A stretch of 64,000 nucleotides of DNA from Gavia stellata (lineage: Eukaryota > Chordata > Aves > Gaviiformes > Gaviidae): the NCBI RefSeq assembly GCF_030936135.1, contig NC_082634.1:136501-200500 (forward strand), read 5' to 3'. A program made the position numbers and the translations under genes. Below, piece after piece: positions 10,571 through 13,700 of this stretch. The notes beneath the pieces were generated by a model. That model was not told the origin of the DNA. It did no database searches and saw nothing but the letters and a program-made list of their open reading frames with translations. Within the stretch, counting starts at the first letter, position 1; every line of letters begins with the position of its first letter.

Positions 10571-10708
10571 CTTCCCGCCGCGCGCCTGACTTCCGCTCCC
10601 GGCCGGCCCCGCGCCGCGGGAAGTGACGTCAGGCCGGAGGGGTCCTGACGCCGCCCGGAAGCAGCTGCCCCCCGCGGTGCCTGCGCAGGGCCCGGCCCCG
10701 GCCCCGCC
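10571..10708. promoter_or_regulatory. Bidirectional MED29/PAF1 promoter
   Basis: Only 138 bp separate the two divergent start codons. The segment holds a perfect CRE palindrome TGACGTCA (10624-10631) joined to an ETS-type GGAAGTG, further ETS-like cores (ACTTCCG near 10590, CCGGAAG near 10655), and a YY1-type AAGATGGCGGC that contains the MED29 start codon. There is no TATA box. The pair is also head to head in mammals. Confidence 0.85.
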
Positions 10709-13700
10709 ATGGCTCCCACCATCCAGACGCAGGCGCAGCGGGAGGAGCCGGGCCACAGGTACGGCGGCGCCACGGGCCTGACGTCATGGCGGGTGCCGTG
10801 GCGTCACGGGGTGGGGGCGGGCCCGCGGGTCGCGGGGGGAGCCGGACGGTCAGGGTCCCCTGGTGATGTCACAGGCAGCGGGAGGGCGGGGGGCGCGGAA
10901 CCCCGGGTGCCCTCCTGACGTCATAGCGCACGTGCGGGGCTTGGGGGTCCCCATTCTGACGTCATTGTGCACGGAAGGAGCGGGGGGGGTGTCCCGGATG
11001 CCTGGGTCCCTTCTTGACGTCACACACAGTGTGTGTGGGGGGTCCCTTCTGATGTCATAGCGCACAGGAGGGCGGGGTTCTGGATGTTGGGGTCTCTTCA
11101 TGACGTCATAGCGCGTGGGGGGCGGGGGGCCCGGGCGCCTGGGTCCCCCCGCTCCCCTCCCCCTCCCGCAGGCCCAGCTCCCACCGGACGCTGCCCGAGA
11201 GGTGAGTGGGGGTCAGACCCCGCGGGTGCCTTTCGGGGTCCCCACCCCCGGGGGTCCCCCTGTGTTCTGGGGGGGTTCCCCGTGTTTTGGGGTCCCCCCC
11301 TGACCCCCCCCCAACCCGCCCCCCCCCCAGGTCGGGCGTGGTCTGTCGGGTCAAGTACTGCAACAGCCTCCCCGACATCCCCTTCGACCCCAAGTTCATC
11401 ACCTACCCCTTCGACCAGAACCGGTACGGGGGGGCCCCTCCCGCCCCCCCCGTGCCCCAATTCGGGCCATAAAACGGGGGGTTGGGGGGGTGGGGGGGTG
11501 GGGTCCTCTCTGCCTCCTGCAATGCAAAGGAGGGGGCAGGGGGGATTGGGGGGGGGTCATTCAGCGCTGGGGAAGGGGTTTGGGGGTGCTTTGACCCCCC
11601 CTGGTTTGAGGGGGGAGGTGTTGGGGGGTGGGGTGTTTTGGGGGGCTGGAGTGTTTTGGGGGGTGTTTTAGGAGGGGGTGGTTTTTTGGAGCAGCATTTT
11701 GGGGGGGGGTTGAGGGGGTTGGGGATTTTGGGGGGTGGGTTGGGGGGTTTGCATTGTTTTGGGGGGTTGGGTTGGGGGGTTTGCGTTGTTTTGGGGGGGT
11801 TGGGGTTATTGGGGGGTGGGTTGGGGGGTTTGCGTTGTTTTGGGGGTGTGTTTTGGGGGGTTGGGAGTTTTTGGGGGGTGTTTCGGGGTGCCTGGATGTG
11901 CCCCCCCCCCCAGGTTCGTGCAGTACAAGGCAACGTCGCTGGAGAAGCAGCACAAGCACGACCTGCTGACGGAGCCTGACCTGGGCGTCACCATCGACCT
12001 CATCAACCCCGACACCTACCGCATCGACCCCAGCGGTGGGGGGGCTGGGGGCACCCCGAATTTAAGGGGGGACCCCCGAATTTAGGGGGGGATCCCAGAT
12101 TTGGGGGGGGGGCATCTACCCCAGGGCTGAGGGACACCCCAGGAGCTCCACAAGGGGCTGAGCTGCCAGTAGGGGTTGGGGGGACCCCAAAATTGGAGGG
12201 GGGGAACCCAACACTGGTGGGACCCCAAAAATTGGGGGGTGACCCCAACACTGGGGGAGTGGAAGCTAAATTTTCCCTTTCCCTCCCCCTCCAGTGCTCC
12301 TGGACCCGGCGGATGAGAAGCTGCTGGAGGAAGAGATCCAGGCACCCACCAGCTCCAAGAGGTAACAGCATCCCCGGGGGGGGGACACGGACCCCCAAAA
12401 CCAGGCTGGGGGGGGGCACACGGCACCCCTAAACCCTTGGGGGGGCCCCCCATCACGCTGCCCCCCCCCGCCCCAGATCGCAGCAACACGCCAAGGTGGT
12501 GCCGTGGATGCGCAAGACCGAGTACATCTCCACCGAGTTCAACCGCTACGGCGTCTCCAACGAGAAACCTGAGGTCAAGTGAGTCCGGGGGGGTCCCGGC
12601 GGGGGGGGGCACAGCCCCCTGCCCCCCCTCACCCCCCCACCCGTGTCCGTGTCCCCCCCCAGGATCGGCGTCTCGGTGAAGCAGCAGTTCACGGAGGAAG
12701 AGATCTACAAAGACCGCGACAGCCAAATCGCCGCCATCGAGAAGACCTTCGAGGATGCCCAGAAAGCGGTAAGAAGAGGGGGGGGCGGGTTTTTTGGTGT
12801 CCCCTCCGGGGATATTTGGGGCCCCCCCAGGATTTTGGGGGACACACACACAGTCCTGACACACTCCTGTGCCCCCCCCAGATCACGCAGCACTACAGCA
12901 AACCCCGTGTCACCCCTGTCGAGGTCATGCCTGTCTTCCCTGACTTCAAGGTAAGGGGAGACGCCGCGGGGACCCCCTCGGCATGGGGGGGGACACTTTG
13001 GGGACCCCCCAGTGGGGGGAGAACGACACCCCAAATCCCCCCCCTTCCCACGACACTGTCCTGCAGGGGAAACTGAGGCACGGACCCCCCATCAGAGGGG
13101 GAATCAGGGGTTTTGGGGGCAAAACAGTGGTTTTGAGGGCTGAGGGGGTGCTGGGGGGGGCATGTTGCCCCCCACAACCCCTTCTCCACACCCCCTTTTT
13201 GCCCCCCCCCCCGTTCTTTTTGCCCCCCCACACCCACCACCTTGTACCCCCCAGATGTGGATCAACCCCTGCGCCCAAGTCATCTTCGACTCGGACCCAG
13301 CGCCCAAGGACACGAGCGGCCCGGCCGCCCTGGAGATGATGTCCCAGGCCATGATCAGGTGCCGGGGGGGGGGGGGGACACCCCTCATTTTGGGTAGGGG
13401 GGGTCTCTGCCCCCCCCGCACCCCCTTTAACCCCTTCCTGCCCGCAGGGGGATGATGGACGAGGAGGGGAACCAGTTTGTGGCCTATTTCTTGCCGGTGG
13501 AGGAGACGCTGCGCAAGCGGAAGCGGGACCAGGAGGAGGAGATGGATTACGCCCCCGAAGACGTGTACGGGGCCGGGGGGGGTCTATATATCCGGGAGGG
13601 GCCCTATATCACTGGGGGGGGTCCTATAGAGCTCAGGGCGTCCCATATAGCCTGGGGGGAACCACAGGGAGGAGGTATGGGGGGGACCTGCAGCTTCGTG

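Follow-up and report, generated by a model that had tools for sequence, protein, structure and literature searches.

A candidate CREB/ATF site cluster of six exact CRE palindromes at the MED29/PAF1 promoter region and in PAF1 intron 1 of Gavia stellata

Six exact copies of the full CRE palindrome, TGACGTCA, lie within 485 bp of one another around the start of PAF1, at positions 10624, 10779, 10916, 10957, 11015 and 11101 of the window (the whole 64-kb stretch of DNA that was analyzed). The copy at 10624 occupies the 138 bp that separate the MED29 start codon from that of PAF1, and the remaining five fall in PAF1 intron 1, within its first 350 nt. This short region thus holds more sites for a single factor family than chance would give, as in a homotypic cluster, and is presumably a control region. 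The favored interpretation, to which a probability of about 0.5 is given, is a promoter-proximal homotypic cluster of candidate CREB/ATF (bZIP) sites that was multiplied by the growth of an intron repeat and kept by selection. The drifted spacers and near-intact sites suggest, without proving it, that the sites are in use.

CRE copies and their gene setting

All six positions of TGACGTCA in the original prediction were reproduced, as were its two TGATGTCA variants at 10864 and 11050, and an additional variant, TGGCGTCA, is present at 10799. The seventh exact TGACGTCA of the window stands outside the cluster, at 7742. Octamers with at most one mismatch from TGACGTCA number 20 in the 64-kb window, and nine of these start between 10624 and 11101. 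Dinucleotide shuffles of the whole window give an expectation of 0.21 copies of TGACGTCA per 64 kb, and none of 100 shuffles reaches seven. Six or more copies were likewise absent from all 5000 Markov simulations of the stretch 10571-11172 at each of orders 0, 1 and 2, the largest count being 2. Helical phasing of the sites is not significant (P = 0.42 and 0.73).

The features outside the intron repeat are as follows.

7742 to 7770, plus strand: CRE TGACGTCA (7742) with TGACGTCG (7763), both in a CpG-rich block that lies upstream of the minus-strand gene SUPT5H
10571 to 10708, no strand assigned: gap of 138 bp from the MED29 start codon to that of PAF1, a putative bidirectional CpG-island promoter
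10589 to 10596, minus strand: further ETS-type word from a pattern scan
10618 to 10631, plus strand: promoter CRE TGACGTCA (10624-10631), overlapped by the ETS-like GGGAAGTGACG (10618-10628)
10655 to 10661, plus strand: further ETS-type word from a pattern scan
10759 to 11171, plus strand: PAF1 intron 1, 413 nt, GT-AG, in a phase that fits exon 1 (10709-10758) and exon 2 (11172-11201)
10779 to 10786, plus strand: CRE TGACGTCA of intron 1, close to the 5′ splice site and with TGGCGTCA after it at 10799; not demonstrable as a repeat copy

Protein Data Bank and Pfam matches uphold the assignment of the two genes to PAF1 and MED29. The MED29 ATG, read from the sequence, is at 10570-10568 on the minus strand and the PAF1 ATG at 10709 on the plus strand. 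The first three PAF1 exons, 10709-10758, 11172-11201 and 11331 to about 11423, form one continuous reading frame, and introns 1 and 2 have confirmed GT-AG boundaries. Together with the start of exon 4 they encode a 97-aa peptide that has a full-length Protein Data Bank match to PAF1 (6ted chain V, E = 1.6e-60, aligned from residue 1). A Pfam search with eight pieces returned Paf1 for four, Med29 for one and no match for three; the first-exon piece of MED29 has no Pfam match. On the minus strand, MED29 matches MED29 of 7emf chain 2 (E = 9.3e-26), and past it, on the same strand, SUPT5H matches SPT5 at E = 4.6e-13 through an alignment that is partly acidic and compositionally biased. The order TIMM50-SUPT5H-GbX-PLEKHG-MED29-PAF1 is reported in turtles, Anolis and coelacanth, GbX being absent from chicken (PMC4524481). 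The scant space between SUPT5H and MED29 in the window fits a bird-like lineage. Viral and prokaryote contig collections yielded 2 and 16 pattern-matching stretches, none of them a PAF1 relative, which is expected of collections that are viral and prokaryote.

The observed/expected ratio (o/e) of CpG is 0.87 over the gap and exon 1 (10571-10759), 0.77 in intron 1 and 0.41 just downstream; the intron value suggests low germline methylation, but two of the six unit cores described below have C-to-T at CpG. Exact CREs occur in two of the 29 CpG-rich blocks of the window. One of these, 9901-11051, holds five of the six cluster sites, with 11101 just past its end, and the other, 7301-8001, lies upstream of SUPT5H. 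Within the latter, TGACGTCA, TGACGTCG and one CCGTCACG are clustered at 7742-7785, so that the neighbors SUPT5H, MED29 and PAF1 would each have CREs near the gene start. A nearly perfect 73-bp minisatellite with a CpG o/e of 0.30 (9284-9911; 8.6 copies, 96% matches) lies between the first and later exons of MED29.

A pattern scan of the gap also finds AAGATGGCGGC, presumably a YY1-type word, at the MED29 start codon, and the words at 10589-10596 and 10655-10661 conform to what we take to be the ETS consensus. An overlapping ETS-CRE motif has been published as (G/C)CGGAAGTGACGTCA, with the 11-mer CGGAAGTGACG (PMC3464117). The spacing of GGAA and TGACGTCA in 10618-10631 is identical to that of the motif, however the first letter of the 11-mer is G at 10618; GGGAAGTGACG at 10618-10628 is therefore one letter off CGGAAGTGACG and falls outside strict ETS-CRE membership. 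In human, TGACGTCA is enriched in proximal promoters and CpG islands and its binding is inhibited by CpG methylation, however only 7% of its copies are in promoters (PMC3464117), so the mere presence of an exact CRE says little. A literature search found no paper on a PAF1-MED29 bidirectional promoter.

The degenerate array in PAF1 intron 1

Most of the intronic sites belong to a worn repeat, the parts of which are listed here.

10853 to 11141, plus strand: degenerate array of six units, each GGGTCCC-like, then TGAYGTCA, then TAGCGCAC-like, then G-rich, with every part worn
10864 to 10871, plus strand: unit core TGATGTCA, C-to-T at CpG
10884, 11070 and 11120: three GGGCGGGG boxes in the array
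10916 to 10923, plus strand: unit core TGACGTCA, with a CACGTG E-box word at 10929
10957 to 10964, plus strand: unit core TGACGTCA
11015 to 11022, plus strand: unit core TGACGTCA
11050 to 11057, plus strand: unit core TGATGTCA, C-to-T at CpG
11101 to 11108, plus strand: unit core TGACGTCA, slightly past the end of the CpG-rich block 9901-11051

A repeat finder for ungapped families groups the stretches at 10853, 10910, 10951, 11004, 11039-11044 and 11090-11095, and the spacing of the units is irregular, ranging from 35 to 58 bp. Of three settings of Tandem Repeats Finder (TRF), two leave intron 1 without a call (coverage 0.00), and the most permissive reports two rows, 10905-10988 and 11146-11167 (coverage 0.26). 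The flanks of the six units have a pairwise identity of 0.54, whereas random sets of 20 letters from the same intron average 0.31, which makes common descent of the six units likely. The array would be old or fast-decaying. An assembly artefact is argued against by the fact that all six units differ from one another.

The array accounts for four of the six exact sites. The site at 10624 lies outside the intron, and 10779, considered as a seventh repeat copy, fails the flank test, its score of -20 (rank 427) being background in the unit-flank model. The flanks of both sites are unrelated to those of the units, and neither is a demonstrable repeat copy. The original prediction had placed the intronic copies in a degenerate tandem repeat that multiplied the CRE. 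Six diverged units carrying the site bear this out, with 10779 excepted; the tandem character holds weakly, given that it appears as ungapped repeat families and is not called by TRF at two of three settings, and multiplication by the repeat is not demonstrable for 10624 and 10779.

The cores of the units are better preserved than their surroundings. Among the six units, minority letters account for 2/48 core positions and 30/96 positions of the adjacent flanks, eight letters on each side (Fisher p = 1e-4). On the 3′ side alone, the eight letters, which are TAGCGCAC-like, are not a G run and abut the anchor, have 16/48 minority letters versus the 2/48 of the core (p = 4e-4). Both core changes are C-to-T at CpG, and all 36 of 36 non-CpG core letters are intact. 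When columns are permuted and the best 8-column block is sought at any place, P is 0.0115, 0.0122 and 0.0014 for three ungapped spans of the six units, and 0.003 on their gapped alignment. These retention statistics, with P up to 0.012, come from six units and from an anchored alignment that favors the core. With 10779 added, the any-place P is 0.0000-0.0002 (20,000 shuffles); the six-unit figures are used because this site fails the flank test. The objection that the units were chosen by their core is addressed by a leave-one-out model built on the flanks only, in which held-out units score 11.4-18.1 bits and core-less places within 10570-11329 reach at most 6.3.

Two of the six units have lost the core CpG, and a flank CpG starting at the fourth letter beyond the core is missing in three of the six, so CpG decay is ongoing and the core CpG is not visibly better kept. 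The earlier proposal that the CRE had apparently been kept is partly supported, by the excess of minority letters in the flanks, and is tempered by the loss of the core CpG in two units. Its expectation that sites be kept while spacers drift, examined here within this one genome, is borne out at P = 0.0014 to 0.012 for six units. The sites have probably been retained by selection.

Controls in the window, contig and genome

In the 64-kb window, no palindromic 8-mer other than TGACGTCA has six copies in less than 500 bp, and TGACGTCA ranks second by observed/expected, flanks ignored, among the 378 window 8-mers with at least five copies in 508 bp. A larger sample of the contig, C41, on which the window occupies 136501-200500, comprises the window and 20 further stretches, 264 kb out of 455,725 bp, and contains 14 exact CREs, six of which are in the PAF1/MED29 cluster. 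Apart from the cluster and the SUPT5H copy there are seven, four at a CpG o/e of 0.89-1.10 and three at 0.34-0.66. The sample has 1913 8-mers with at least five copies in 508 bp, and 22 of them pass a flank identity of at most 0.5 together with an observed/expected of at least 50. TGACGTCA is first among these 22 at 1515, the next being at 172. The other 21, some of which are overlapping words of one repeat, likewise combine dissimilar flanks with a ratio of 50 or more. Words conserved inside worn repeats thus occur on the contig, and the TGACGTCA cluster is the extreme case. Another word kept in a worn repeat is GGCGTGGC, with 13 copies in about 500 bp from C41:269572 onward (L010) and a flank identity of 0.335. 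By copy number in 493 bp, four others among the 256 palindromic 8-mers exceed TGACGTCA on the 264 kb and two equal it. Counting TGACGTCA itself, 24 palindromes share its letter composition and have CG at the center; the next best cluster among them in this sample has three copies.

A triple of CREs with gaps of 22-52 occurs in at least one place in the 1.32-Gb genome, at the PAF1/MED29 cluster, and matches there on both strands because the word is a palindrome. The backwards control of the triple, whose word lacks the rare CpG, also occurs in at least one place; uniqueness across the genome rests on this one pattern, and the counts are lower bounds. The longer word TGACGTCATAGCGC is found in at least three places, two in the PAF1 array and the third on another contig, C2. 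This third place (L001 1501-1560) is GC-rich and carries a pair of TGACGTCA at a distance of 52 bp. TAGCGC comes directly after the first of them, a feature shared with the PAF1 array, and the flanks otherwise differ.

A further cluster is found on the contig of the window, outside the window itself, where three TGACATCA and one TGACGTCA lie within 63 bp (C41:130569-130631; L014 4069-4131). The exact CRE seems to overlap the stop codon of a gene on the minus strand, the end of which we take to be TIMM50-like, and the cluster would therefore sit in a 3′ untranslated region. CRE-like octamers may thus also multiply away from promoters, mostly decayed at CpG.

Competing explanations and known systems

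In the favored interpretation, the MED29/PAF1 stretch would be open chromatin and mostly unmethylated. CREB/ATF dimers would sit on several palindromes simultaneously and bring co-activators to the start sites beside them, making the output of PAF1, and perhaps of MED29 too, robust and possibly cAMP- or stress-responsive. A founder CRE would have been multiplied by local growth of the intron repeat; selection for occupancy would have purged core changes, and the G-rich spacers would have drifted. CpG-to-TpG changes in two cores would represent loss in progress, tolerated because the sites are redundant. Binding by CREB/ATF, action on PAF1/MED29 and retention on that account are proposed from what is known of CREs in CpG islands (PMC3464117) and of CREs in tandem (PMC11049346).

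A more doubtful explanation, still to be taken seriously, is neutral growth, in which a founder with a chance CRE was duplicated locally by 'stuttering' and the cores stayed intact through fast slippage of G runs and the CpG-rich DNA around them. The intron 1 repeat does resemble the imperfect local repeats of avian dot-chromosome introns (PMC12954441), and introns 2 and 3 of PAF1 exceed intron 1 in TRF coverage and contain no CRE within one mismatch. The decay of the core CpG in two of six units, the other conserved 8-mers in worn repeats of the contig and the CRE-like cluster at an apparent gene 3′ end (C41:130569-130631) are also what neutral growth would produce. However, the eight letters 3′ of the core are worn (16/48 against 2/48) although they are not a G run, no core-less place in 10570-11329 attains a unit-like score, and the perfect copies at 10624 and 10779 have unrelated flanks. 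Homogenizing conversion, for its part, would need tracts of about 8 bp.

It is unlikely that only 10624, perhaps with 10779, works, and that the intronic array is a passive by-product which at most buffers CREB/ATF protein. The promoter copy is accompanied by ETS-type words in the bidirectional gap, a classical CRE/ETS position (PMC3464117), and in human promoter mutagenesis homotypic site number failed to separate functional from non-functional sites, CREB not being among the factors (PMC3491394); this explanation is nonetheless at odds with array cores that are retained better than their flanks. Far less credible is the idea that the palindromes mark meiotic recombination, with germ-cell ATF/CREB opening the chromatin, breaks forming there and repair both growing the repeat and spreading the site. 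In fission yeast, recombination is promoted by CRE-like M26 sites to which Atf1 binds (PMC2677671), and birds, which have no PRDM9, recombine at CpG islands and at start sites (PMC10781513), but the literature found on CRE-linked recombination concerns yeasts, and the TRF-called arrays of the window contain no exact CRE. A combined version, similarly improbable, makes the CRE itself the engine: germline CREB/ATF occupancy would open the intron, draw recombination or replication trouble without PRDM9 and grow its own repeat, and selection on PAF1/MED29 output would remove broken cores, yielding a self-amplifying array that tunes dose.

The candidate CREB/ATF cluster can be set beside several known systems. 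With CREs in CpG-island promoters it shares the full palindrome, the CpG-rich DNA and the adjoining start codons, here of a transcription-machinery gene pair; it differs in having six candidate copies, five of which are downstream in intron 1, and in being known from sequence alone. Several CREs in one region also characterize a known repeated-CRE control region, however that region is upstream of a tissue-specific gene and has been tested experimentally, whereas the six exact sites and three variants described here, read only from an assembly, extend over 485 bp and are mostly intronic. Another example is the promoter VNTR of the prodynorphin gene, the unit of which presumably carries an AP-1-type site. 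This 68-bp tandem repeat likewise multiplies a bZIP site beside a gene, however its units are polymorphic and located in the promoter (PMC3934978), while those of PAF1 are diverged, intronic and taken from one assembly.

On chicken dot chromosomes, introns display 'sequence stuttering', and the euchromatin is reported to be full of tandem repeats that are GC-rich and to lack interspersed repeats (PMC12954441). The 264 kb sampled from the contig have a GC content of 0.657 and a TRF coverage of 22%. Imperfect local repeats in the introns of GC-rich genes may be common to both, however the main text of that study names neither PAF1 nor SUPT5H, and its accessible parts describe no retained regulatory site (PMC12954441). 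No paper on a minisatellite carrying a cAMP response element was found among the literature texts accessible to the search. What would be new is one exact regulatory word riding through the churn of an intron repeat.

The PAF1 case is concrete and readily testable, and it concerns a gene whose product belongs to the transcription elongation machinery. Should the cores be neutral, the case cautions against inferring function from clusters of sites in repeats. If they are under selection, unstable GC-rich introns of birds can build and keep multi-site control regions, and repeats that are usually dismissed as noise would hold regulatory content.
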